40,901 bases of DNA from Ilumatobacteraceae bacterium (GTDB lineage Bacteria; Actinomycetota; Acidimicrobiia; Acidimicrobiales; Iamiaceae): the NCBI GenBank assembly GCA_025463265.1, contig JAOBWH010000057.1, positions 1-40,901 of the forward strand, given 5' to 3'. The notes below the pieces were generated by a model that had not been told where the DNA came from, searched no databases, and worked only from the letters and a program-made list of their open reading frames with translations. A program made the position numbers and the translations under genes. This document shows positions 13,237 to 30,248 of the stretch, piece by piece. Numbering within the stretch: position 1 is the first letter of the stretch; each line of letters starts with the position of its first letter.

Positions 13237-13358
13237 CCTCGCTTCGCTCGGCCAGAACGTGATGGGACCCGGCTCCGGCCCGTGGTCGCGGTTCGATACC
13301 TGACCGGCTTGCGGGCCGCTCGTCGGCTGCGCCTCCTCGATGCTGTCCTTTCCGCTCG

Positions 13359-13492: not shown

Positions 13493-14005
13493 GTGGTGGT
13501 TGCGGGAGAGCTGCGGGTGGGCGTGACGGGGCACCGGGATCTGGCGCGCACCGATGAGGTCGCAGCGGCGGTCGACGTCGCGCTGGACCACCTCGTCGAC
13601 GAGACCGTCACCTCGCTCGTCGTGGTGTCGGCGCTGGCGGAGGGCGCGGATCGCATCGTGGCGGAGCGGGTCCTGGCCCGGCCCGGGGGCCGCCTCGTGG
13701 CCCTGCTGCCCCTCGACCCCGCGGACTACGTGCGGGACTTCGCCGACGTGGCCTCGGTCCAGGCGTTCACCGACCTGCTCGCAGCAGCAGATGAGCACGA
13801 GGTGGTGCGGGGAGCACCCACCGACGACGGGACGCGCGAGGCGGCGTACGAGCGCGCTGGCCACGCCATGCTCGACCGGATCGACGTGCTGCTCGCCCTG
13901 TGGGACGGCGAACCGTCGAAGGGCCGGGGCGGCACCGCGGAGATGGTGGTGGAGGCGGGCCTGATCGGCCGCCGCTGCGAGGTGATCACCGTGGAGCGGG
14001 CCTGA
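13493..14005 (+). CDS. SLOG/LOG-like Rossmann protein, partner of RyR-domain channel
   Basis: A 170-residue protein beginning with LRVGVTGHRDL, then VVVSALAEGADRIVAERVL, LLPLDPADYVRDF, and a closing DVLLALWDG followed by GGTAEMVVEA. This pattern (GVTGHRD, S-x-L-AEGAD, GGT) is that of SLOG/LOG-superfamily nucleotide-binding Rossmann proteins, which are predicted to bind or process nucleotides and are found near RyR-domain and ion-channel proteins. The start is uncertain: the frame is open upstream, but similarity begins here, and a CAGAAT -10-like box six bases before the GTG suggests a leaderless start. The stop overlaps the ATG of the channel gene by one base (TGATG), so the two are translationally coupled and probably act together. 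Enzymatic activity is not demonstrated by sequence. Confidence 0.72.
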   Translation: MVVAGELRVGVTGHRDLARTDEVAAAVDVALDHLVDETVTSLVVVSALAEGADRIVAERVLARPGGRLVALLPLDPADYVRDFADVASVQAFTDLLAAADEHEVVRGAPTDDGTREAAYERAGHAMLDRIDVLLALWDGEPSKGRGGTAEMVVEAGLIGRRCEVITVERA

Positions 14006-15711
14006 TGCTCAACGACACCCGGAAGCGGTGGTTCGTCCTCGCGTTCCTGTGGGTCGTGATCGTGGTCATCGGCATCACCGGGTTCGTGAAGCAGGGTTCG
14101 GCGGACGGCGTGAACCGGGCGTTCCTCGACAACCTGTACCTGACCTTCCAGCTCGGCACGCTCGACTACGACGGCAGCTCCGGCCCGATGAACTGGCAGG
14201 TCCAGCTGGCCCGGTTCGTCGTCCCGCTCCTCGCCGCCGGCACCATCCTCCAGACGGCCTCGGTGGTCTTCCGCGAGGAGTTCCGTCGCTACCGGCTCCG
14301 CTACCAGAAGGGCCACACCATCATCTGCGGACTGGGCGAGACGGGCGCCCGCCTCGCCACCGCGTTCTCCGAAGCGGGCGGGCACGTGGTGGCCATCGAG
14401 CCCGATCCCGCCGTCGCCGCCGGGTCCGGTGTGGCCGAGCAGCTCGACCACGTCCTGTCGGGCAGCGGCACTGACGAGGAGCTGCTGCGCACCGCAGGCA
14501 TCGAGCGGGCCGGCCGGGTCGTCGTGTGCACGGGCGACGATGCGGCCAACGTGCAGGTCACCCAGGTCGTGGCGCGCGTCAGCACCGCCCGGTCGAGGAC
14601 CCCGCTGCGGTGCTCGGTGCAGCTCGGGTCGGCCAGCCTGGCCCTGCTGCTGCGCTCCGCCGACCTCGAGAGCCACGGCGGCACCCGCATCAGCTACTTC
14701 AACCTGCACGAACGGGCGGCGCGGGCGCTGCTCGCCCAGCAGGGCCCGCCGATGGCCGTCGCCTGGCCGGCGCCTCACCTGATGGTGGTCGGTCTCGGCC
14801 AGTTCGGCACCAGCCTCGTGCTCGCCCTGTCCCAGCAGTGGGCCGACGTCCAGCCCGGGGTGAAGCTCAACCCGACCCTGGTCGACCCGGCCGCCCGGCA
14901 GAAGTGGGAGGCGCTGCGCCTCCTGCACCCGGCCCTCGACCAGGTGTGCGAGCCCACGCTCGTCGATCTCGATCTCCAGGCGCCCGAGCCCGACGAGGTC
15001 GACGGGTTCCTCGCGCTGCTCGCCGAGGACCCGCCCGCCTGGGTGGCCGTCGCCGACGCCGATGAGACCACGGCGCTGGCCAACGCCGGCTTCTTGCACC
15101 AGCACCTGCCTCGCGGCCGGGTGGCCATCGTGGTCCGGATGCAGAGCGAGTCGGGGCTCGGCGGCCTGCTCCAGCCCCACCCCGATTCGGCGCCGACGCT
15201 GCCCGGGGTGTCGCTGTTCCCGTTCCTCGACCGCACCTGCACCATCGAGACGGTGGACGGCGGCGTCCGCGAACAGCTGGCCGAGTCGGTCCACGAGGAC
15301 TACCTCGCACACCTGGACCCGGCAACCTCCGGGTCATCGCTGGCCCGGCCGTGGGCCGAGCTGTCCGACGCGGACCGGGAGCAGAGCCGCAAGCGGGTCG
15401 ACGGCATCGTGGCCGACCTCGACGCCCTCGGCCTCGACCTCGTCCCGCTGCGACGGTGGGGCGCCCCGGAGGTGACCCTGACCGACGAGCAGGTCGACCA
15501 CCTCGCCGCCCGGGACCACCAGCGCTGGTTCGACGACCGCACCGCAGCGGGGTGGACCCGCGGCGAGGTGCGAGACGACCTCACCAAGCGCAACCCCCTG
15601 CTCGTGGGATGGGACGAGCTTCCCGACGACGCCAAGGCGTTCAACCTGGCGACCGCACGCGACCTGCTCCCGATGCTGGCCCGCAACGGCTTCGAGGCCG
15701 CCGAGCGCTGA
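14005..15711 (+). CDS. Two-helix ion channel with two TrkA-N domains and C-terminal RyR domain
   Basis: A 568-residue protein. TM1 spans about residues 9-27, and a pore-loop-like segment (LYLTFQLGTLDYDG) about 43-56. TM2 spans about 68-90, followed by an amphipathic basic linker. A first TrkA-N/RCK Rossmann domain starts at about 108 (IICGLGETGARLA) and a second at about 259 (LMVVGLGQFGTSL). The C-terminal part (about 450-565) resembles a prokaryotic RyR domain, with paired segments WAELSDADREQSRKRV and RDHQRWFDDRTAAGWTRGEVRDD ending in WDELPDDAKAFNLATARDL. RCK domains gate potassium-type channels by binding NAD(H), nucleotides or ions. The pore lacks a classical TVGYG filter, so ion selectivity is unclear. 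Coupling to the SLOG-like gene suggests gating by a nucleotide-derived ligand (inference). Confidence 0.8.
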   Translation: MLNDTRKRWFVLAFLWVVIVVIGITGFVKQGSADGVNRAFLDNLYLTFQLGTLDYDGSSGPMNWQVQLARFVVPLLAAGTILQTASVVFREEFRRYRLRYQKGHTIICGLGETGARLATAFSEAGGHVVAIEPDPAVAAGSGVAEQLDHVLSGSGTDEELLRTAGIERAGRVVVCTGDDAANVQVTQVVARVSTARSRTPLRCSVQLGSASLALLLRSADLESHGGTRISYFNLHERAARALLAQQGPPMAVAWPAPHLMVVGLGQFGTSLVLALSQQWADVQPGVKLNPTLVDPAARQKWEALRLLHPALDQVCEPTLVDLDLQAPEPDEVDGFLALLAEDPPAWVAVADADETTALANAGFLHQHLPRGRVAIVVRMQSESGLGGLLQPHPDSAPTLPGVSLFPFLDRTCTIETVDGGVREQLAESVHEDYLAHLDPATSGSSLARPWAELSDADREQSRKRVDGIVADLDALGLDLVPLRRWGAPEVTLTDEQVDHLAARDHQRWFDDRTAAGWTRGEVRDDLTKRNPLLVGWDELPDDAKAFNLATARDLLPMLARNGFEAAER

Positions 15712-15720
15712 AGCCGGCCG

Positions 15721-16941
15721 TCAGGCCAGCTCGGACCGCCGGCGTTCCAGGTAGCGGCGCTCCGGGTCGGCCGTGGCCAGGGCGATCGCCCGGTCGAAGG
15801 ACGCGACCGCCTCGCCGGTGCGGCCGAGGCGGCGGAGCAGGTCCGCCCGGGTGGCGTGGTAGGGCACGTACCCGTCGAGGTCGAGCAGGTCGACCTCCTG
15901 GAGCGCCTCGGCGGGGCCGCGCACCTCGGCCACGGCGACGGCCCGGTTCAGCTGGACCACCGGCGTCGGCGCATGCGGCACGAGCTGGTCGTAGAGGGCG
16001 AGGATCTGCACCCAGTCGGTCCGCGCCGCGTCCGAGGCGTCGGTGTGGACCGCGGCGATCGCCGCCTGCACCTGGTACGCCCCCGGCTGGTTGCGGCGCA
16101 GGCACCGCCGGACCAGGTCGTGACCTTCGGCGATCTCGTCGCCGTCCCACAGCGACCGGTCCTGGTCGGGCAGGGGGATCAGCACGCCCGCTGCGTCGAC
16201 GCGGGTCGCCCGCCGAGCGTCGGTGAGCAACATGAGCGCGAGCAGGCCGACGGCCTCGGGCACCTCGGGCACCAGATCGCACAGCAGCCGGCCGAGCCGG
16301 ATGGCCTCGGCGCACAGGTCCTCGCGCACCAGCGCGTCCGAGGTCGAGGACCGGTGGCCCTCGGTGAAGATCAGGTAGAGGACGGCGAGCACCGAGCGCA
16401 GGCGGGCGGGCAGGTCGGCTGCGTCGGGCACCCGGTACGGGATCTTGGCGGCGGCGATCTTCTTCTTGGCCCGGACGATCCGCTGGGCCATCGTGGCTTC
16501 GGGCACGAGGAACGCCTGGGCGATCTCCGGGGTCTGGAGACCGGCGATGAGCCGCAGCGTGAGGGCGATGTGCGCCTCCGGCGACAGCGCCGGGTGGCAG
16601 CAGGTGAAGATCAGCCGCAGCTGGTCGTCGGGCAGCGGACCGACGTCGGGCGGTTCCGATGGGGTGAGCATGGCGGTGGCCTCGGTCTGACGGGCATCGC
16701 GGGTGGACTCCCGCCGCAGCCGGTCGATGGCCCGGTTGCGGGCGGTGGTGGTGATCCACGCCCCCGGGTTGGGCGGCAGCCCGTCGACCGGCCACTTCTG
16801 CGCCGCCGTCACGAACGCCTCCTGGACCGCGTCCTCGGCGAGATCGATGCTCCCGAGGACGCGGACCAAGATGGCGATGCAGCGGCCCGACTCATCCCGG
16901 AAGACCCGGGCGATGTCATCGGCGGTCGGCGTGACGGTCAT
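15721..16941 (-). CDS. ECF42-type RNA polymerase sigma factor with C-terminal TPR-like extension
   Basis: A 406-residue sigma factor. Region 2 includes DLAEDAVQEAFVTAAQKWP and PNPGAWITTTARNRAIDRLRR. Region 4 includes LTLRLIAGLQTPEIAQAFLVPEATMAQRIVRAKKKI. The C-terminal 200 residues are the helical extension of the ECF42 (DUF6596) group, ending in TPR-like repeats (RADLLRRLGRTGEAVASFDRAIALA). This group is typically paired with a DGPF/YCII-family protein and has no anti-sigma factor; the extension is thought to control activity. The gene follows the DGPF gene by 19 bases. The ATG at 16941 was chosen because similarity starts there; the frame is open further upstream into the DGPF gene. Its 3' end is convergent with the channel gene, 9 bases apart. 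Confidence 0.9.
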   Translation of the reverse strand: MTVTPTADDIARVFRDESGRCIAILVRVLGSIDLAEDAVQEAFVTAAQKWPVDGLPPNPGAWITTTARNRAIDRLRRESTRDARQTEATAMLTPSEPPDVGPLPDDQLRLIFTCCHPALSPEAHIALTLRLIAGLQTPEIAQAFLVPEATMAQRIVRAKKKIAAAKIPYRVPDAADLPARLRSVLAVLYLIFTEGHRSSTSDALVREDLCAEAIRLGRLLCDLVPEVPEAVGLLALMLLTDARRATRVDAAGVLIPLPDQDRSLWDGDEIAEGHDLVRRCLRRNQPGAYQVQAAIAAVHTDASDAARTDWVQILALYDQLVPHAPTPVVQLNRAVAVAEVRGPAEALQEVDLLDLDGYVPYHATRADLLRRLGRTGEAVASFDRAIALATADPERRYLERRRSELA

Positions 16942-16960
16942 GGGGCTCCGACCTCGGGTC

Positions 16961-17335
16961 TCAGGCCTCGAGGCCCTCGGCGTCGTCGGGGCCGTCGTGG
17001 AACGGCCGGACCTCCACGGGCGCACGGCAGGCGGCCGAGCCGCGTGCGGCGAGCGCGAGCGCGGCGTCGAGGTCCGGCGCCTCCACGATCCAGAAGCCGC
17101 CGATGTGCTCCTTGGCCTCGGCGAAGGGTCCGTCGGTGGTGATGGTCTCGGCGCCGGTGGCATCGACCACCGTCGAGGTGGACGGCTCGTGCAGCCCGCC
17201 GGCGAACACCCAGGCGCCTTCGGCCTGGAGCTCGTCGTTGAACCGGCCGGTGGCCTCCATGGAGGCCTTCATCTCATCGGCGGGGGTGGCGGGCGCGCCA
17301 TCGACGTAGTGGACGAAGAGGAGGTACTGGGACAT
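16961..17335 (-). CDS. DGPF/YCII-family protein (ECF42 partner)
   Basis: A 124-residue protein with the diagnostic TDGPFAEAKEHIGGFWI motif in the middle and a MSQYLLFVHY start, matching the YCII-related (PF03795) family. These small dimeric ferredoxin-fold proteins are the standard neighbours of ECF42 sigma factors. A role in sensing or in the stress response is suspected but not settled. The ATG at 17335 was preferred over that at 17344 because AAAGGA at 17345-17350 lies at proper distance only from the former. First gene of a two-gene operon with the sigma factor. Confidence 0.88.
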   Translation of the reverse strand: MSQYLLFVHYVDGAPATPADEMKASMEATGRFNDELQAEGAWVFAGGLHEPSTSTVVDATGAETITTDGPFAEAKEHIGGFWIVEAPDLDAALALAARGSAACRAPVEVRPFHDGPDDAEGLEA

Positions 17336-17447
17336 GGGGAACATCCTTTGCTCGGAGGCGGGCCCGTTGCCCTGCCTTCACCACTACTACGAACGGCCGT
17401 CGGTCCGATCGACCACGCCGACGAGATTTCCGGGAATTCCTCGCGGA

Positions 17448-17453
17448 TAGGGT
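17448..17453 (+). promoter_or_regulatory. TAGGGT -10 box, leaderless promoter of the PPOX gene
   Basis: TAGGGT fits TANNNT and lies seven bases before the ATG at 17461, so transcription would start at or next to the start codon. A GGAATTCC palindrome at 17433-17440 lies in the spacer/-35 region and may be an operator. Confidence 0.45.
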
Positions 17454-17460
17454 CCCGGCC

Positions 17461-17958
17461 ATGGGGACCAACCAGCGCAGCCAGATCGAGATGAGCCACG
17501 ACGAGATCGTGCAGTACCTGGAGCGGAGCCGCACGGCGACCATGGTCACCAACGGTCCCAGCGGCCACCCCCACGCGGTGGCCATGTGGTACGCCGTCGT
17601 CGACGGGGCCATCTGGTTCGAGACCAAGGCCAAGTCGCAGAAGGCCACGAACCTCCGCCGCGACCCGAAGATCACCGTGCTGATCGAGGACGGCCACACC
17701 TACGACACCCTTCGTGGCGTGTCGCTGGAGGGCACCGCCGAGATCATCGACGACCCGGATGCGCTGTGGGCGGTGGGCGTGTCGGTGTGGGAGCGCTACA
17801 ACGGCCCCTACACCGACGAGATGAAGCCGCTCGTGGAGTTCATGCTCCACAAGCGCGTCGCCGTGCGCGTCGAGGTCAGCCGCACGCGCAGCTGGGACCA
17901 CCGCAAGCTCGGCATGGACCCGATCCCCCTGGGCGGCACCACCGCCGAGTTCCTGTAG
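17461..17958 (+). CDS. PPOX-class F420- or FMN-dependent flavin/deazaflavin enzyme
   Basis: A 165-residue split-barrel protein of the pyridoxamine 5'-phosphate oxidase-like superfamily. Typical segments are ATMVTNGPSGHPHAVAMWY, the cofactor-contact strand IWFETKAKSQKATNLRRDPKITVLIED, and SLEGTAEIIDDPD. This pattern is that of the actinobacterial F420-dependent PPOX family (Rv1155/Rv2074-like), which reduce unsaturated substrates such as biliverdin, or merely bind F420. It is divergent from the DGPF/ECF42 operon across 125 bases and reads out of a putative leaderless promoter. The substrate is unknown; FMN use is possible. Confidence 0.85.
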   Translation: MGTNQRSQIEMSHDEIVQYLERSRTATMVTNGPSGHPHAVAMWYAVVDGAIWFETKAKSQKATNLRRDPKITVLIEDGHTYDTLRGVSLEGTAEIIDDPDALWAVGVSVWERYNGPYTDEMKPLVEFMLHKRVAVRVEVSRTRSWDHRKLGMDPIPLGGTTAEFL

Positions 17959-17974: not shown

Positions 17975-20900
17975 TCAGTTCTGGCTGGCGTCGACGGCGG
18001 CGATCATCTGGTCGAGCTGCTGGACCATCGGCGTGAGGTGGTGCTGGGCCGCCATCTGGCGGGCCTGCTGCAGCGATGCCAGGGCCTCCTGCTTGCGACC
18101 GAGCTGGCCGAGGAGCTCTCCCCGGTTGGCGGTGGCGAAGAGCACCCCCTGGGCGTCGCCCGTGGCCCGGCTCAGCTGGAGCTGCTCGTCGACGCAGGCC
18201 AGGGCCCCGGTCAGGTCGCCCTGCTGCTGCTTGACGATGGCCCGGTTCCCGACGCAGGCGGCGAGGCCCACCTGGTTGCCGGTGCGGCGGCAGATCTCCT
18301 CCTGCTCGTCGAGGAGCGCGGTGGCCCCCGCGAGGTCGCCCTGGCCCAGCACGAGCAGGGCGCGATCGCCGACGGCCTGCTGCAGCATCCCGTCGTCGCC
18401 GAGGGCGCGGGCGGTGGTGGCCAGGTCCTCGTAGACCGGTCCCGCCTCCGCGGCGCGACCGGTGCGGTTCAGGTGCTGGAGGGCCTGGGGGAGGATCTGC
18501 TGGGCCTGCTGCCAGGCACCGGACCGCACGCACGCGTGGCCGCAGGCGACGAGGTCGTCCGTGGCGGCGGCGTCGTCGCCGAGCACGTTGTGCACCTGCC
18601 ACCGGTTGTTGAGCAGCGGCACCAGCACCATCCAGAGGTTCCGCTCGCGCAGCACCGGCTCGGCGGCGTCGTACCAGGCGAGGCCGTTGCGGAGGTCGTT
18701 GCCGGCCACGGCCACGTTGCCCAGGTTGACCTGTGCGGTGGCCACCGCGGACGGGTCGCCGAGCTGGGTGGCGACCGCCAGCTCCTCCTGGTGGGCCGCC
18801 GCCGAGCCGGGGAGATCACCCGTCTCCCGGCGGCCGGTGCCGAGTGAGCCGAGGGCGAGGACCAGGGCACCCGGTGCGTCGGCCGCCTTGGCGGTGAGGA
18901 CGGCCTCGGTGGCCAGGCGCACCACCTCGGGCCAGCGGCCCTCGTCGGTGGCGACCCGGGCCTGGCCGTCGAGGACACGGGCCAGCAGCGCACCGTCGCC
19001 CATGCGGCGCACCAGCGCCTCCGCCTCCGCGCTGCGCGCCGCACCTCCGGCCGCGTCGCCGAGCTGGCGCAGGGTGTTGCCCAGGTTCAACAGGGCCTCG
19101 GCCTGGGCGCGCAGGTCGCCGGCCTCCACCGCCCACGTGCGGTACGCCTCGAACCGCTCCACCGCGGCGGCCGGATCGCCCCGGTCGGCCTGGATCGCCG
19201 CCTGGCCCACCAGCGCAGCGCCCAGCCCGGCGGCATCGCCGACCGCGCGGCACCGGGCCTCCTGCTCGGCGAGCAGCACCATGGCCTCGTCGTAGCGGCC
19301 GAGCTGGCGCAGGGCGCCGGCCCGGTTGCCCAGGCTGGCCTGGAGACCCCCCGTGTTCCCGAGCCGGCGGCACAGGTCTGACTCTTCGCTGAACAGGGCG
19401 ACCGCAATGTCCAGTTCGCCGCTGTCTCGGCGGGCCAGGGCGAGGTTGCCGAGCGCCGCCTGCAGCAGCGCATCGTCGCCCGCAGCTCGGCTGAGGGCGA
19501 CCGCCTCCTCCAGCGGGACCTCGGCCGCGTTCAGCTCGCCCTGGAGCCAGAGCGCCGCACCCAGGTTCACGAGCGATGCCCGGAGCCGCGCCGGCGCCCG
19601 CTCCTCGCCGGGTGCGCCGCCCGCCCGGTAGTGGTCGACGAGGAAGCTGTTGAGGGCGAGCGCTTCGGTGGGGTGGCCGGCGTCGGTCACCAGCCGGGCC
19701 ACCGCCCAGGCCTCCTCGGCGTGCGCCGCCGGGTCGGCGAGGACTGCGGCGTAGCCCTGCACCACGGACCGCCCCGCCTCCTCGGCTCGGGCCCACTGAC
19801 GCCGCAGGTCCCCGTGGGCGATGGGGTACGCCACCTCGAGGTAGGCGAGGTCGCTGATGGTCCGCACCAGGCCGTCGATGTCGCCGGCAGCCAGCTGGGC
19901 CCAGGGGAGCTCCTCGACCTGCCGGGGCCCCAGGGGCTCCGCCGCGAAGTACCCGGCCACCACCGCCGAGGCCTGCTGGCGGTCCGCCTCGGTGGGGAGG
20001 TAGCGGTCCTCGACCGCCCGGCGGTGCACGGGCGTGGCGAAGCCGAGCATGCCCGAGCGGGTGACGAGGCCGTCCTCGGCGGCGAGCACCAACGGCGACC
20101 AGACGGCGTGGGGCACCGGCTCGCCACCCGCCCCGGCCAGCCGGGCCAGCAGCTCCGGCTCGGTCAGGCCACGGCGCGACGCCCACAGCGCCCGCATGGC
20201 GTCGCCCACCAGCCCGGGCCGATCCTGCTCGAAGTCCTGCTCGTAGCGGTCGAGCACCTGCTCCAGGAGGTCGTCGACCGTGGCGGCCGACAGGTACCGG
20301 TCGATCACCTCGCCGAGGGTGAAGTGATCGCCCCACTGGCGCAGCTCGTCGAGCACGGTGCGCAGGAACAGGGGGGTGCCGGTCTGCGGCGCCGCGGCCA
20401 GGCGATCGACGTGCACGGCGTCGAGCCCCTTCGACCACCGTCCCAGGAACGTGGCGATGAACGCCCGGCGCTCGGCATCGTCGAGCGGCGGGACCTCGCC
20501 CACGGGCCACTCCCTGCGGTTCGCCTCGTCGACGGTCCGCCGATCGCTGGTCGTGATGATCACCCGCACCGTGGGCGGGAGCTGGAGCGGAAGCCAGGTC
20601 AGGTCCGGCGCACCATCGATGTCGGTGAGCAGCTCGACGCCATCGACCACCAACACGATGCGCTCACCGCTGGTGCCCCTCCGTTCGAGGGCGGAGAACA
20701 GCGAGGCTCGGCGACCTGGCGCATCGTCGGGGAGCAGCGCCACATCGACCATCGGGTCGAGGGCGGCGACCAGGCGGGCGGCCAGGTTCCGCCAGTCGGA
20801 CGCATCGGACGTGGCCCCGACGTGGTGCACGAACGCGCCGCGGTCGTCGGCCCAGCGAGCCACCAGCGGCGTGATGTCCGAACCGGGCGGGCCGTGCAGG

Positions 20901-21712
20901 ACGAGCGGCGGCGCGATCCCGTCGACGTACCGGTCGAGCGCCGCCACCACCTGGGGCCGGTCGATGTGGCCGGCACCCCGGGCTGCGCCGAACGCCCGAT
21001 GGGCATCGGCTTCGCGCTCGACCGCATCGGGCACCTCACCCGCCGGGAACAGCTCGTCGATCATCGCCGTCAGCTCGGCGAGGACCTGGCGGCCGAGGTC
21101 CTGCGGCGACCGGTAGTCCTGGCACGGGTGGCCGGAGGACCGGACCCGGTCCTTCAGCTGCTCCAGCTTCGGGATGTTCTCGGGATCGGCCTCGACCAGG
21201 ACCTCCTGCTCCTCCGGCGGCCGCGACGCCACCCACGAGGGGTCCCGCAGGTGGAAGAACGTGTGGCCGGCGGCACCGGGATCGTGGAGGACGCCGTGCA
21301 GCACCTCCATCTCGGTGACCGAGGTGCCCGACAGCGATCCCAGCCAGGGCAGCTGCTCGACGAGGTTCGCCGGCATCTCCTCGGGGACCCAGCCGTACCG
21401 CTGGCCGAGCAGGCCGAGGAAGAAGGGCCGGCTGCGGTCGATCTCGGCCAGACAGATCGGCAGCACCGCACCCTCGGCCTTCTGCTCGTCGGTGACGCCC
21501 CAGCGCAGGTCGACCTCCGACCAGCCGACGCCCCGCTCCTCGCACAGCCGACGCACCTGCGGGAATACCCGCTTCACCAACTCCTCGCGCTCGGCCTGCA
21601 TGTCCCGGAACGTCGACGACACGAACACCCGCACCGCCCGCTGCGACCCGAACCCGATCTCTCCGGCGTCCCCAGAACCGCTCCCGCCCGCACCTGATCC
21701 CGCATCAGCCAT
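17975..21712 (-). CDS. DUF4062 / STAND-NTPase-like / TPR protein with degenerate P-loop
   Basis: A 1245-residue protein. Residues about 27-110 are DUF4062 (VFVSSTFRDMQAEREELVKR, then VDLRWGVTDEQ), the N-terminal module also found in TEP1 and NPHP3-like proteins. About 265-600 is a STAND-type NTPase region with LVLHGPPGSDIT at 270-281 and a Walker B-like RIVLVVDG at 351-358. The Walker A Lys and preceding Gly are replaced (SDIT in place of SGKS/T), so ATP binding by the usual mode is doubtful. From about 650 to 1240 there are some 14 TPR-like helical repeats rich in ALxNLGxxLxQLGDxxGA. Such proteins act as signal-sensing scaffolds, several in anti-phage defence, but no effector domain is recognised here. 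The ATG at 21712 has AGGA eight bases upstream; an ATG at 21721 is an alternative. Confidence 0.85.
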   Translation of the reverse strand: MADAGSGAGGSGSGDAGEIGFGSQRAVRVFVSSTFRDMQAEREELVKRVFPQVRRLCEERGVGWSEVDLRWGVTDEQKAEGAVLPICLAEIDRSRPFFLGLLGQRYGWVPEEMPANLVEQLPWLGSLSGTSVTEMEVLHGVLHDPGAAGHTFFHLRDPSWVASRPPEEQEVLVEADPENIPKLEQLKDRVRSSGHPCQDYRSPQDLGRQVLAELTAMIDELFPAGEVPDAVEREADAHRAFGAARGAGHIDRPQVVAALDRYVDGIAPPLVLHGPPGSDITPLVARWADDRGAFVHHVGATSDASDWRNLAARLVAALDPMVDVALLPDDAPGRRASLFSALERRGTSGERIVLVVDGVELLTDIDGAPDLTWLPLQLPPTVRVIITTSDRRTVDEANRREWPVGEVPPLDDAERRAFIATFLGRWSKGLDAVHVDRLAAAPQTGTPLFLRTVLDELRQWGDHFTLGEVIDRYLSAATVDDLLEQVLDRYEQDFEQDRPGLVGDAMRALWASRRGLTEPELLARLAGAGGEPVPHAVWSPLVLAAEDGLVTRSGMLGFATPVHRRAVEDRYLPTEADRQQASAVVAGYFAAEPLGPRQVEELPWAQLAAGDIDGLVRTISDLAYLEVAYPIAHGDLRRQWARAEEAGRSVVQGYAAVLADPAAHAEEAWAVARLVTDAGHPTEALALNSFLVDHYRAGGAPGEERAPARLRASLVNLGAALWLQGELNAAEVPLEEAVALSRAAGDDALLQAALGNLALARRDSGELDIAVALFSEESDLCRRLGNTGGLQASLGNRAGALRQLGRYDEAMVLLAEQEARCRAVGDAAGLGAALVGQAAIQADRGDPAAAVERFEAYRTWAVEAGDLRAQAEALLNLGNTLRQLGDAAGGAARSAEAEALVRRMGDGALLARVLDGQARVATDEGRWPEVVRLATEAVLTAKAADAPGALVLALGSLGTGRRETGDLPGSAAAHQEELAVATQLGDPSAVATAQVNLGNVAVAGNDLRNGLAWYDAAEPVLRERNLWMVLVPLLNNRWQVHNVLGDDAAATDDLVACGHACVRSGAWQQAQQILPQALQHLNRTGRAAEAGPVYEDLATTARALGDDGMLQQAVGDRALLVLGQGDLAGATALLDEQEEICRRTGNQVGLAACVGNRAIVKQQQGDLTGALACVDEQLQLSRATGDAQGVLFATANRGELLGQLGRKQEALASLQQARQMAAQHHLTPMVQQLDQMIAAVDASQN

Positions 21713-21770: not shown

Positions 21771-22649
21771 TCAGGCGAGGAGCCAGCGGACGGTGTCGAC
21801 GTGCTGGTCCGCGTAGCGGGAGTCCCAGGCCCAGGCGACGGTCTGGGCGACGGTCCAGCCGAGCGCTCGGTCGCGGTCGAGCCCGAGCTCGGTGCACAGG
21901 CGGTCAAAGCGTCCCCGGACCGCAGCGGGGGAGTGGCCGAGCTGGCAGTCCCGGACGGCAGGCGAGATGCCGAGCTCCCGCTCGCCCACCAGCGGCTTGG
22001 GGTCGATGGCGAGCCAGCCTCGCTGCGACTCGAGGATGTTGTCGCCGTGGAGGTCCTGGTGCAGCAGCACCGGGTCGCCCTGCGTCCCGGGCAGGTCGCG
22101 CAACGCCTCGTCGGCTGCTTCGACCAGTCGCCGCTCGCACGGCTCGCCGGCCTCGGCCCACCTCGCCCACAGCGTCGACCGCCAGCCGGCTGCCTCCTCT
22201 GCGAGCGACCGGAAGGGCGCGCCCGCCGGCACCCACAGCTGGGGGAGCAGGTCCGCCACCACGGCGACCGCGTCGACGTCGGTGCGTCCGGCCAGGCGGG
22301 CGCCGGGCGTGCACCGTTCGAGGAGGAGCGCGTGCCGGGTCGGGTCGTGGGCGAGGAGGCGGATGGCGCCGTGGCCGTCCCAGGCGCCGAGGGCGGCGGC
22401 CTCGTGCTCGCACTCGGGGTGCGGCCACTGCACCTTGATGGCGACGTCGCGCCCGTCCTGCACGGCCGGCGCAGCCCACGACACCGAGGAGCCGTCGTAG
22501 GGCGCACCGACCTGGAGGCCCCACCGATCGGCGCACCCCGTCACGAGGCGCGGGAGTTCGTCGAGCCAGGCGGAGCCATCGGGATCACCCCGCAGCCAGG
22601 CCAGAGCGGGCGGAACCGTGATCGTTTCGCCACCGCCCAGGTCCGCCAT
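21771..22649 (-). CDS. Streptomycin 6-kinase-like (APH(6) family) phosphotransferase
   Basis: A 292-residue kinase of the aminoglycoside/hydroxyurea phosphotransferase family. The catalytic loop HQDLHGDNIL and the following metal-binding AIDPKPLVGERE are intact, and the N-lobe Lys lies in VAIKVQWPHPECEHEAAAL. Family members phosphorylate streptomycin or small sugars and alcohols; housekeeping paralogues of unknown substrate are common in actinobacteria, so resistance should not be assumed. The ATG at 22649 was chosen where similarity begins and has AGGTGG 11 bases upstream. The STAND gene starts 58 bases downstream in the same direction, so the two may be co-transcribed. It is divergent from the radical SAM gene. 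Confidence 0.8.
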   Translation of the reverse strand: MADLGGGETITVPPALAWLRGDPDGSAWLDELPRLVTGCADRWGLQVGAPYDGSSVSWAAPAVQDGRDVAIKVQWPHPECEHEAAALGAWDGHGAIRLLAHDPTRHALLLERCTPGARLAGRTDVDAVAVVADLLPQLWVPAGAPFRSLAEEAAGWRSTLWARWAEAGEPCERRLVEAADEALRDLPGTQGDPVLLHQDLHGDNILESQRGWLAIDPKPLVGERELGISPAVRDCQLGHSPAAVRGRFDRLCTELGLDRDRALGWTVAQTVAWAWDSRYADQHVDTVRWLLA

Positions 22650-22739
22650 CGGCAGATCGTGCCACCTGGAGCCGCCGCGGGCGTGCGGTACCCTCGACCA
22701 GACGGGCACTGGGGCCATCGACTCGGGGAGGATCGGGAA

Positions 22740-24710
22740 ATGCGCATCGCCTTGGTCCAGTGCCCCCCGTGGGGCTCCCTGCCACCGCTCGGCCTGGCCA
22801 CCCTCAAGGCGTACCTCGAGGAGCGGGGTCACGAGGCGCCGTGCTTCGACCTGAACATCGACTACTGCCGAGACCGCTTGGCGGACCTCATCGACGATCT
22901 CGGCGGATCGGTCTACGCCCGGCCCGATCCGTGGGTCTCGGGTTCCTACGAGGAGTGGGACTTCGACTTCGACGGCGAGGTCAAGTTCCGGTCGGCGCTC
23001 AAGGACCGGCCGCTCCCGTACCAGCGTTGGGCGAGCGAGATCCTGGCCTGCGCGCCGCGCGTGGTGGGGTTCAGCCTGCAGTCCACCAACCTCGGCGTGA
23101 CGCTGCAGGTCGCCCAGGAGATCGCTCGCCGGGACCCGTCGGTGGTCATCGTGTTCGGTGGTCCGAACGTCGCCGAGGCGCAGCAGGGCCGCATGGCGCT
23201 GCTGACCGGCATCCCCGACGTGCTGGTCGAGGGTGAAGGGGAAGAGACTGCGATCGCCCTGTTGGAGGCCATCGAGTCCGGCGCTGGGCTCGAGACCGTC
23301 GCGGGGATCGGGCTCCTGGTGGACGGAAAGCCGGTGTGGACCGAGCGTCGGCCACTCCTGAAGGACATCAACGCGCTGCCGTTCCCGGACTTCAGCGACT
23401 TCGACTGGATGCAGTACCCGAACCCCTACGAGATCCCGGTGATGGCGTCGCGGGGGTGCGTCCTCAAGTGCGCCTTCTGCTACGAGACCGTCTACTGGAA
23501 GCGGTACCGGACCCAGAGCGGACCTCGCGTGGTGGCCGAGATCCTCCACCAGATCGAACGGCACCCGCTCAACGGCGAGAGGCAGTTCGGCATCGCGTTC
23601 GCCGACTCGCTCGTGAACGGCCATCTCGGTGGGCTGCGGCGCATGGCGGACTCGCTGATCGAGAACGGCACGAACATCTACTGGAACGGTCAGGCGACCA
23701 TCAACACCAAGATGGACGAGGACTACATCATGGCCCTGCGTCGGTCGGGCTGCACCGGGTTGTCATTCGGCTTGGAGAGCGGATCGCCGCTGGTCATCGA
23801 GTCGATGGGCAAACGCTTCGACATCGACGAGGCCGTCGGGTTCTTCGAGCGGGTCCAGCGCTCCGGGATCGAGCTCGTGGTGAACGTCATGGTCGGGTTC
23901 CCGACGGAGACCCGAGCAGACTTCATCGAGACGCTCCGCTTCCTGCGCCGGATTCGCAAGCTGATCCACATGGTGAACAACGTCGGGTCGACGGCCATCG
24001 TCGGTGGGTCCCGCCTCCACCAGGATCCCGAGCAGTTCGGCGTGCAGCCGCTCCATCCCGAGTGGTGGGCGGACCACATCAACCTCGAGTGGACCTCGGA
24101 GGCGGCAGGCGACGAGCGCAACCGCCAGCGCCGGGTGCGCCTGCTCCACGCGTGGATGGCGCTCATGCGCATCCCGCACCAGAAGATCGGCCCGTCGTCG
24201 GCACCGCGGTGGAGGCTGCGGTTGCCCGCGCTCGCCCGGGTCAAGCGGTCCTTCGGCCAGCGGTCGGCGAGCGAGGCGCAGGAGCGCGAGAAGGCCCAGC
24301 CCCCGACGCCGGTGGTGATCACGATGACCGAAGCGTCGGTCCAGCGTCGCCTGGCGAAGATCGCCAGGGTCGCGGGGGTCGAGCCGCTGGTCCTCGAACT
24401 TGCGGACGGGTTGCTTGCTCCGGGAGGACTGCTCCCTGCCTGGTCGGAGCCGTTCGCCCCGGAGGAGTGGACCGGGCGCTCGGGGATGGCGATCCACGAC
24501 CTGATCGCGGCGCGCGTCCAGGGCACGGTGCGCATGTCGGAGTCGAGGTCGTCGTCGCAGGGAGTCGTCGATGTGGCACTCACGATCGAAGGCGGCGACC
24601 TCGACGTGACCGGCTTCAAGATCAAGACGTTCCCGCCGCTTGAACCGGAAGGCCCGCAGACGGTGGCGATCGTTCCCGTGGTGCGGACGGCAGCGAGCGC
24701 TCGCGGCTAA
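22740..24710 (+). CDS. B12-binding-type radical SAM protein with unassigned C-terminal extension
   Basis: A 656-residue protein. Residues about 1-200 form a cobalamin-binding-like Rossmann domain (MRIALVQCPPWGSLPPLGLATLKAYLEERGH; VVIVFGGPNVAE). The radical SAM core starts with Cys240-x3-Cys244-x2-Cys247 (RGCVLKCAFCYE) and continues with LSFGLESGSP and VNVMVGFPTET, as in BchE/MiaB-like class B enzymes. The last roughly 190 residues, after LHAWMALMRIPHQKIG, contain a basic stretch and then a beta-rich tail I cannot assign. Likely chemistry is a radical methylation or rearrangement; the substrate is unknown. GGGGAGG lies seven to eight bases before the ATG. It is divergent from the APH(6)-like gene with a 90-base gap, and a possible TACCCT -10 lies at 22689-22694. 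Confidence 0.85.
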   Translation: MRIALVQCPPWGSLPPLGLATLKAYLEERGHEAPCFDLNIDYCRDRLADLIDDLGGSVYARPDPWVSGSYEEWDFDFDGEVKFRSALKDRPLPYQRWASEILACAPRVVGFSLQSTNLGVTLQVAQEIARRDPSVVIVFGGPNVAEAQQGRMALLTGIPDVLVEGEGEETAIALLEAIESGAGLETVAGIGLLVDGKPVWTERRPLLKDINALPFPDFSDFDWMQYPNPYEIPVMASRGCVLKCAFCYETVYWKRYRTQSGPRVVAEILHQIERHPLNGERQFGIAFADSLVNGHLGGLRRMADSLIENGTNIYWNGQATINTKMDEDYIMALRRSGCTGLSFGLESGSPLVIESMGKRFDIDEAVGFFERVQRSGIELVVNVMVGFPTETRADFIETLRFLRRIRKLIHMVNNVGSTAIVGGSRLHQDPEQFGVQPLHPEWWADHINLEWTSEAAGDERNRQRRVRLLHAWMALMRIPHQKIGPSSAPRWRLRLPALARVKRSFGQRSASEAQEREKAQPPTPVVITMTEASVQRRLAKIARVAGVEPLVLELADGLLAPGGLLPAWSEPFAPEEWTGRSGMAIHDLIAARVQGTVRMSESRSSSQGVVDVALTIEGGDLDVTGFKIKTFPPLEPEGPQTVAIVPVVRTAASARG

Positions 24711-28277: not shown

Positions 28278-30248
28278 ATGGTCAACGCAGAGAAGCGGCG
28301 TCGTACGGCGGTGCCCAAGGCGACCAGGTCGCCGGGGTCCGACGCGGCCTCGCCGGTCGGGGTCGTGAAGGAGGCGTCGGAGCCCAGCATCGGGGCCAAG
28401 CTCCGGTACCGGTTCGACCTGGCGCTGTCCCGTGGCCCGCTGGTGGTCATCGGCTACCTGGGGCTGGTGATGCTCGCCATCATCGTGGTGGCGTCGATCT
28501 TCATCTGGGCGTTCCAGCTCAAGGGCGTGAACGGCGGCGACCCCATCAACAACCCGTTCGACGCCTTCTGGCAGGCGATGCTGCGCGTCGTCGACTCCGG
28601 CACCTTCGCTGCTGACGCCACCTGGCCCACCCGGATCGTCGGCCTCTTCATCACGATCTGCGGCATCTTCCTCGCCGGCAGCCTCATCGGTCTCATCGCC
28701 AGCGCCGTCGACCTCCAGATCGAGCAGCTCCGCAAGGGCCGCTCGACGGTCCTCGAGACCGGCCACACCCTGGTCCTCGGCTGGTCGCCCCGCCTCCCCA
28801 CCATCCTCAGCGAGCTGGTCGAGGCCAACTCGAACCAGAAGAAGGCCGCGCTGGTCGTGCTGGCGAGCGTCCCCAAAGACGAGATGGAGGACGAGCTGCG
28901 CGTCCGCGTGCCCGAGACCGGGACCACCCGGGTGGTGTGCCGCACCGGCGACCCGTCGAGCCCGGCCGACCTGGCGATGGTGAACGTCCTCGGTGCCCGT
29001 TCGATCATCGTGCTGGCAGGCGATGAAGGCGACGCCGGGGTCGTGAAGGCGGTGCTCGCGGTGCGCAGCGTCGACCCCACGTTCTCGAGCGCACATGTGG
29101 TCGCCGAGCTCGACAACCCGGGCCACGCCGCCACGCTGCGGACCCTCACCGAGGGTCGGATCGTCACCATCCAGGCCGACGAGATCATCGCCGAGCTGAC
29201 CGCCCAGGCCTGCCACCAGGCCGGACTGGCCGCCGTGTTCCGGGAGCTGCTCGACTTCGACGGCGACGAGATCTACTTCACCGATGTCCCCGAGCTCGTC
29301 GGCGTGACCTACCGCGACGCACTGCTGGCCTTCGACACGTGCAGCGTGCTCGGCTGGATCCGTGCCGACGGCGTGGTGGAGCTCAACCCGCCGGCCGACG
29401 CCGTGTTCGGCAGCGGCTACGAGATCATCACCGTGGCCGAGGACGACGACACGGTCGTGTTCTCGGGTGTGGTGGCCGCCCCGGCGGTGAGCGTCGACAC
29501 GTCGGTCGGCTTCGACGAACCGGCCCAGCGCATCCTCATGATCGGCTGGAGCGACCTCGGCCCCGGCGTGCTCCGCGAGCTCGACGAGTTCCTCACCGCC
29601 GGTTCGACCGTGGACCTCGTCGTCGATCCGGAACTGATCTCGTCCGATCTCGACGAGCTGGACCCGGCCCTCCCGCAGACCGCGAACTGTGCGATCACCG
29701 TGCACCGCGGCGGTCGCGGCCCCGAGGCGCTGATGGAGATGGCGACCTCCGGCTTCGACCAGGCCATCGTGCTCGGCTACCGGGATCCGATCCCGGTGTC
29801 GGAGTCCGATGCGCGCACCATGCTCACGCTCCTCACCCTCGACAAGGCGTTCGCCGGTGCGGCGCAACGGCCCAGGGTCGTGGCCGAGATGCTCGACCGG
29901 GCCAACGTCGCCGTCGCCCAGACCACCGGGGTCGAGGACTTCATCGTGAGCGACGAGCTGTCGAGCCTGATGATGGCCCAGCTGTCGGAGCGCCTGGAGC
30001 TGCACAAGGTGTTCGATGAGCTCTTCGACGCCGACGGCTGCTTCGTCGCGCTGCACCCGGCGCCGCTGTACGCCGCGCTCGCCGCACCGACCCCGTTCGC
30101 CGAGATCGTGGCCGCCGCCTCCGAGCGGGGCCAGACGGCGTTCGGTTGGCGGGTCGCCGCCACCGGCGAGGTCGTGGTCAACCCGACCAAGGCCGCCACC
30201 GTGGCGCTCACCGCGGACGATCAGGTCCTCGTCCTCGGCCCCCGCTGA
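28278..30248 (+). CDS. CASTOR/POLLUX-like ion channel
   Basis: A 656-residue protein. After a charged N-terminus there are two long hydrophobic helices at about residues 58-80 and 117-140, separated by a pore-loop-like FDAFWQAMLRVVDSGTF. The soluble part starts with TGHTLVLGWSPRLPTILSELVEANSN, diagnostic of the CASTOR/POLLUX (DMI1) family. A second Rossmann domain starts at about 415 (RILMIGWSDLGPGVLRELDEF). Plant members are nuclear-envelope cation channels; bacterial members are presumed potassium- or calcium-responsive RCK channels of the cytoplasmic membrane. It is the second RCK-type channel in this window but has no RyR domain and no SLOG partner. Its last 28 bases overlap a convergent small gene. 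Confidence 0.88.
   Translation: MVNAEKRRRTAVPKATRSPGSDAASPVGVVKEASEPSIGAKLRYRFDLALSRGPLVVIGYLGLVMLAIIVVASIFIWAFQLKGVNGGDPINNPFDAFWQAMLRVVDSGTFAADATWPTRIVGLFITICGIFLAGSLIGLIASAVDLQIEQLRKGRSTVLETGHTLVLGWSPRLPTILSELVEANSNQKKAALVVLASVPKDEMEDELRVRVPETGTTRVVCRTGDPSSPADLAMVNVLGARSIIVLAGDEGDAGVVKAVLAVRSVDPTFSSAHVVAELDNPGHAATLRTLTEGRIVTIQADEIIAELTAQACHQAGLAAVFRELLDFDGDEIYFTDVPELVGVTYRDALLAFDTCSVLGWIRADGVVELNPPADAVFGSGYEIITVAEDDDTVVFSGVVAAPAVSVDTSVGFDEPAQRILMIGWSDLGPGVLRELDEFLTAGSTVDLVVDPELISSDLDELDPALPQTANCAITVHRGGRGPEALMEMATSGFDQAIVLGYRDPIPVSESDARTMLTLLTLDKAFAGAAQRPRVVAEMLDRANVAVAQTTGVEDFIVSDELSSLMMAQLSERLELHKVFDELFDADGCFVALHPAPLYAALAAPTPFAEIVAAASERGQTAFGWRVAATGEVVVNPTKAATVALTADDQVLVLGPR

Follow-up and report, generated by a model that had tools for sequence, protein, structure and literature searches.

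Closest described systems and the three-gene locus

Thoeris, considered here as a ThsB TIR protein with a ThsA SIR2-SLOG or macro-TM (transmembrane) effector, combines an NADase-type sensor with an effector bearing a domain that receives nucleotides; 3' cyclic ADP-ribose (3'cADPR) is a ligand of the ThsA SLOG domain, and membrane effectors exist. DUF4062 has been described as a TIR-like NADase in a study of Swarozyc, in which the KpSwz protein carries this domain together with a portal-binding auxiliary domain (2026 preprint, PMC13174449). RyR domains of phages bind or cleave 2'cADPR and 3'cADPR via H75, W78, H100, and D117, using a pocket that is common to the Repeat12 domains of animal ryanodine receptors (2026 preprint, PMC13232231). 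One such phage counter-defense protein, DyoEdafos RyDEP, is a glycosidase with an H/D dyad (PMC13232231). Among channels, TRPM2 couples a SLOG fold to a pore gated by ADP-ribose (ADPR), animal ryanodine receptors, channels with a long-standing link to cADPR, carry a Repeat domain, and MthK-type 2TM-RCK K+ channels and Castor/Pollux proteins share a TM-pore-TM layout followed by a TrkA-N/RCK unit. Here, we describe a locus in a 40,901-nucleotide stretch from an Ilumatobacteraceae bacterium (contig JAOBWH010000057.1; the whole stretch is hereafter called the window). It comprises a SLOG-fold gene (13493 to 14005, + strand), a gene for a putative ligand-gated channel with a C-terminal RyR domain (14005 to 15711, + strand), and a DUF4062 (TIR-like)-STAND-TPR gene (17975 to 21712, - strand).

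We propose that these genes constitute one mobile, immune-type cassette in which an NADase product opens the channel, a reading to which we assign a probability of roughly 0.55. The cassette would represent NAD+-signal immunity with a new effector, being Thoeris-like by its logic, Swarozyc-like by its enzyme, and RyDEP/RyR- and TRPM2/ThsA-like by its receivers. It differs from Thoeris in having a DUF4062-STAND-TPR protein in place of TIR, and a 2TM-RCK-RyR channel plus a separately encoded SLOG protein; SIR2 and macro domains are absent from the cassette proteins, and PADLOC reported no Thoeris match and, a generic TPR model aside, no model matching the SLOG, channel, or DUF4062 parts. With Swarozyc it shares the DUF4062 domain and a conserved candidate catalytic Glu, whereas STAND-TPR stands here instead of the portal-binding domain and linked SLOG and channel genes are unmentioned in the main text of PMC13174449. 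The PF02026 RyR domain with its H and W ligand residues resembles that of RyDEP, but it is the C-terminal domain of a host membrane channel, and Asn occupies two of its four ligand positions. The pores and architecture of TRPM2 and the ryanodine receptors are unrelated to those of the cassette, which has a separate SLOG protein and an RCK gating ring, and the MthK-type and Castor/Pollux channels differ in that the cassette channel has TVGYG replaced, an extra C-terminal RyR domain, and no Castor_Poll_mid match. No paper in the searchable literature describes the trio (the 2015 survey of nucleotide-centric conflict systems by Burroughs et al., NAR, lies outside that scope), and the literature on TIR/Thoeris with RyR or TrkA channels contained nothing of the cassette's form.

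Linkage, history, and distribution of the trio

The SLOG gene lies directly upstream of the channel gene in all seven close actinobacterial members (the window, G403, G404, G431, G398, G400, and a Nocardioides genome), with their codons overlapping or within ~10 bases. In the window, the two genes share a TGATG stop/start overlap (14003 to 14007, + strand), which recurs as an overlap or near-overlap in all seven pairs. Both ORFs and the overlap agree with a reading made earlier from the sequence alone (the original prediction), and the pairing that it described is conserved in six other actinobacterial genomes. The third gene, which had not been linked to the pair earlier, encodes a 1,245-residue protein, our proposed sensor and NADase, and is a conserved convergent neighbor of the channel gene. 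It adjoins the channel gene with no intervening genes in G404 (L072), G398 and G400 (L074 and L075), and the Nocardioides genome (L030), and in G431 (L073) its place is occupied by a TPR gene truncated at the contig end. DUF4062 genes number just one or two per cassette-bearing genome (that of the window, G404, G398, G400, Nocardioides, and G431).

A TIR or DUF4062 gene was found within 8 kb at 14 of 25 channel-RyR loci, compared with 0.26 expected under random placement; the associated p-value (2e-22) disregards relatedness and defense-island clustering and should be treated as an effect size. Distant channel-RyR genes adjoin classical TIR genes (G378, G375, G912, G944, G420, and G015), and one locus (G1008) brings together a DUF4062-NACHT gene, a RelA-TPR-SLOG-RyR protein, and a channel-RyR gene. 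G624 encodes a single 772-residue TIR-2TM-TrkA_N-RyR fusion (P0005; L082:6849-9167, + strand), with a further TIR gene just upstream. This strong linkage to NADase immune genes supports the conflict-system character that had been suspected for the pair. The original prediction had also cast the SLOG protein as making or presenting the ligand; with TIR/DUF4062 NADases recurring as the partner even without a free SLOG protein, the DUF4062-STAND-TPR protein is the likelier source.

RelA/SpoT-type synthetase-TPR-SLOG(LSDAT)-RyR proteins (L044:8214-10922, + strand; L087:5250-7739, - strand; L086:3-2210, + strand) are encoded beside channel-RyR genes, or, for L086, on another contig of a channel-bearing genome, and possibly represent an alternative (p)ppGpp-like signal module. 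Other members of the phylum encode soluble proteins with a C-terminal RyR domain that are pseudokinase-like (L033, L035, and L036) or HD-like (L034, L037, and L038). We left aside all of these channel-less RyR proteins, the RelA fusions included, as belonging to other RyR systems.

Pairwise identities of the SLOG, channel, and DUF4062 proteins give one tree, and their matrices are congruent. The cassette appears to have been transferred as a unit, since the G404 (L072) copies are nearest to those of Nocardioides (L030), which belongs to a different order or class, in all three proteins (75, 64, and 72%). An integrase-like gene (L030:10687-11691, + strand) flanks the Nocardioides trio, hinting at mobility. 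Full-length channel homologs are present in a few percent of genomes of the order and class; profile matches at E <= 1e-20, partial matches included, number 19 of 397 in the order and 25 of 395 in the class. The cassette of the window and of G404 is located between an alcohol dehydrogenase gene and an OB-fold/thiolase operon, and G403, in which it is split over two contigs, is consistent with this placement. In G405, from the window's genus, the same dehydrogenase gene and operon are ~50 bp apart and thus constitute an empty site. The G400 cassette occupies another chromosomal place, so that several sites are used overall. A Castor/Pollux (DMI1)-type RCK channel gene (28278 to 30248, + strand; 656 residues; PF06241, E = 1e-23) lies 12 kb downstream in the window, beside the thiolase/OB-fold operon, and a similar gene occupies the same place in G405, in which the cassette is missing from this site.

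A diverged trio with a different gene order is carried by the Sinorhizobium meliloti conjugative plasmid CP050559 (L080). There, the SLOG gene (P0007) and a DUF4062-NB-ARC-TPR gene (P0006) are divergently oriented, and P0006 has a 4-base overlap with the channel gene (P0003; TrkA-N plus a sub-threshold RyR match). Identities with the window proteins are ~33% (SLOG), ~26% (DUF4062 protein), and ~29% (channel); the GGTAE motif of the SLOG protein and the candidate catalytic Glu of the DUF4062 protein are kept. Scans of IMG/VR with the channel and SLOG profiles detected no relative.

These distributions bear on whether the membrane protein is a plain ion-homeostasis channel that has a SLOG protein as an accessory and hitchhikes in genomic islands among defense genes. 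2TM-TrkA proteins are common and mostly K+ channels, and islands gather unrelated genes, with aminoglycoside-kinase-like, sigma factor, and YCII genes nearby here. However, the NADase linkage is far over chance, recurs in distant bacteria, and includes one TIR-channel fusion; the histories of all three proteins agree, and a patchy presence with an empty site is unlike that of housekeeping channels. We consider such a housekeeping role quite improbable.

Anatomy of the three proteins

The SLOG gene has a GTG start and encodes 170 residues; because an in-frame ATG is also available at 13340, the start is uncertain, with homology beginning at ~residue 6 of the 13493 version. The GVTGHRDL and GGTAE motifs highlighted by the original prediction are both present, and G13, H14, R15, A49, E50, G51, D53, G146, G147, T148, and E150 are invariant among eight homologs. 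Pfam gave no confident match to the protein, with YAcAr, a YpsA-related SLOG family, remaining sub-threshold (best E = 5e-4, in a relative). DUF1045 and Trypan_PARP matches to some members were dismissed as chance or compositional. Sequence searches of the family against PDB returned only chance-level matches (Sam35, TraI, and DprA), and fold comparison was chosen for this reason. The AlphaFold2 model, built with two sequences, is good (pLDDT 81; pTM 0.77). Structurally, it is closest to Bacillus subtilis YpsA (2nx2; Foldseek E = 7e-7, TM score 0.73; VIA Z 17.9, with an rmsd of 2.7 across 153 residues). YpsA is followed by ShosA, DprA, and AMP-bound LOG proteins; TRPM channels (TRPM2 with ADPR) and the ThsA SLOG domain with 3'cADPR come at lower Z, and the matches include AMP, ADPR, and cADPR binders. 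On these YpsA-led matches, the modeled protein is a member of the SLOG superfamily, as originally supposed.

The SLOG protein could nevertheless be an enzyme that makes, trims, or destroys the gating nucleotide, with the DUF4062 gene being a mere neighbor or an independent killer. LOG-type SLOG proteins are phosphoribohydrolases, the translational overlap suggests equal dosing of the SLOG protein and the channel, and the SLOG gene constantly accompanies the window's channel clade. However, the LOG motif PGGxGTxxE is absent from the family, being replaced by GRGGTAE/GRGGTGE in the seven actinobacterial homologs and KPGGTAE in the plasmid one, and YpsA, the nearest fold, is not known to have enzyme activity. 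Together with the recurrence of TIR-family NADases beside channel-RyR loci without a free SLOG, these points make an enzymatic SLOG protein unlikely. Because the LOG motif is unmatched and because binding of ADPR or cADPR is known from SLOG and RyR domains elsewhere, both SLOG and RyR are more likely to be receivers.

The channel gene encodes a 568-residue 2TM-TrkA-N-Rossmann-RyR membrane protein. The two predicted TM segments were recovered by hydropathy (residues 5 to 33 and 70 to 90); TM1 (residues 5 to 33; 14017 to 14103, + strand) is also a helix in the model, and TM2 (residues 64 to 90; 14194 to 14274, + strand) is delimited by hydropathy and the model together. Between them lies a pore-helix/filter-like loop (residues 38 to 60; 14116 to 14184, + strand), in which LYLTFQLGTLDYDGSS replaces the TVGYG filter. 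The pore-like loop of the original prediction is therefore right in position but lacks the K+ signature: the inter-TM loop, which reads GTLDYDG in the window protein, aligns with TVGYRE of 2TM-RCK potassium channels from related genomes, and the relatives' channels read LFVLEFGN, LFTVESGN, and so on at the filter site. The TM helices are followed by a TrkA-N domain (RCK-type NAD-binding; GLGETG; residues 106 to 191; 14320 to 14577, + strand; PF02254, E = 5e-21, above the cutoff) and a second Rossmann-like unit (GLGQFG...D; 14776 to 15144, + strand). Two TrkA-N domains had been predicted; the first stands, and the second, having no Pfam match, is renamed a second Rossmann/RCK-like unit on the basis of its GxGxxG...D motif and a confident model block (the confident part of the model is limited to residues ~261 to 360, block pLDDT 65 to 89). 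Two TM helices and then TrkA-N constitute the 2TM-RCK layout, here without a K+ filter, since the filter-site sequence is replaced; on this layout, the protein would be expected to conduct ions.

The RyR-like C terminus was confirmed as a Repeat12-type RyR domain (residues 495 to 564; 15487 to 15696, + strand). It matches PF02026 (E = 1e-14; 55 bits versus a Pfam gathering cutoff of 27.4), as do all 13 homologs, and phmmer relates it to the Repeat domains of animal ryanodine receptors and to Bacteroides RyR structures. At the positions of the RyDEP/RyR3 ligand residues H75 and W78, the domain has H505 and W508. An off-switch role, in which RyDEP-like hydrolysis or sequestering of the signal limits self-damage while the channel part serves otherwise, would agree with the H/D dyad used by the RyDEP glycosidase (PMC13232231) and with the invariant His of these RyR domains. 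The dyad Asp, however, is Asn in six of seven SLOG-associated clade members, and fusion of RyR to a membrane/RCK protein is typical of gating, which makes this role very improbable. The Asn residues at the H100 and D117 positions appear to favor binding over hydrolysis.

In the third protein, the DUF4062 domain (21380 to 21631, - strand; PF13271, E = 1e-13) is accompanied by a candidate catalytic Glu, E136 (SVTEME; codon at 21305 to 21307, - strand), whose column is kept in seven homologs and which is probably equivalent to KpSwz E97. The STAND P-loop is degenerate in the lineage of the window, G404, and Nocardioides and intact (GPSGTGKS) in G398 and G400. Genes for an ECF sigma factor (-), a YCII protein (-), and a PNPOx-like protein (+) separate the channel gene from the DUF4062 gene in the window (15721 to 17958); we do not count them as members of the system. 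The gene directly upstream of that for the DUF4062 protein (21771 to 23624, - strand) encodes an APH_6_hur aminoglycoside/hydroxyurea kinase-like domain (E = 1e-27).

Proposed mechanism and implications

Under the enzyme-signal-channel account, which we infer from the chemistry of the two preprints and the anatomy of the trio, the TPR/STAND part would detect an infection cue and cluster the DUF4062 domain, which would then cleave NAD+ to ADPR or a cyclic isomer. This product may bind the C-terminal RyR domain of the channel and/or the SLOG partner, presumably seated on the channel, and the ligand-bound domains, with the NAD-binding RCK ring, would open the non-K+-filter pore. Membrane depolarization would follow, stopping the phage through growth arrest or cell death, in a Thoeris-like logic.

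A two-armed effector without a dedicated messenger is a further alternative: DUF4062 would kill via NAD+ depletion, and the RCK/RyR channel would sense the change in NAD+ or ADPR, adding membrane depolarization or restraining false alarms. TrkA-N domains bind NAD(H) or adenine nucleotides, and the GLGxxG motifs are invariant in the channel homologs. NAD+ depletion by the DUF4062 domain of KpSwz (PMC13174449) points in the same direction, but RyR and SLOG, two additional nucleotide-binding modules, would be left without explanation, and phage RyR homologs specifically target cADPR signals (PMC13232231). Such an arrangement is, in our view, about as unlikely as an enzymatic SLOG protein.

Several observations weigh against an NADase product opening the channel. 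KpSwz yields linear ADPR and is reported to act through NAD+ depletion, needing no second effector (PMC13174449). The DUF4062 gene of the window lies 2.3 kb from the channel gene, behind unrelated genes and on the opposite strand, and its STAND P-loop reads GPPGSDITP (residues ~274 to 282 of the protein), a degenerate form. The K+ filter TVGYG is missing at the aligned pore-loop site, and a hidden Markov model of the TM region alone ranks 2TM K+ channels first, with no significant similarity to the channel protein. The AlphaFold model of the channel is poor (pLDDT 47; two sequences), too weak for conclusions on either the pore or the RyR pocket, and N530 and N547 occupy the RyDEP H100 and D117 positions, so ligand affinity may differ. 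About 11 of the 25 channel-RyR loci, some of them on short contigs, have no nearby NADase, and because defense genes tend to group in any case, linkage by itself is no proof of a single pathway.

A broader proposal, which we hold more tentatively than that for the cassette, is that bacterial RyR domains serve as ion-channel receptors for ADP-ribose-type signals from TIR-family NADases (DUF4062-STAND or TIR). If this is true, RyR-domain ligand-gated ion channels would join the effectors of NAD+-derived immune signaling, and DUF4062-STAND proteins, relatives of human NPHP3, NWD1, and TEP1, would gain a downstream target. Phage RyR-domain proteins may then stem from, or mimic, a host signal receiver. 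The long-debated sensing of cyclic ADP-ribose by RyR domains would become testable in a small bacterial protein, and the contested control of animal ryanodine receptors by cADPR would have its origin in an immune signal-and-channel pair of prokaryotes.
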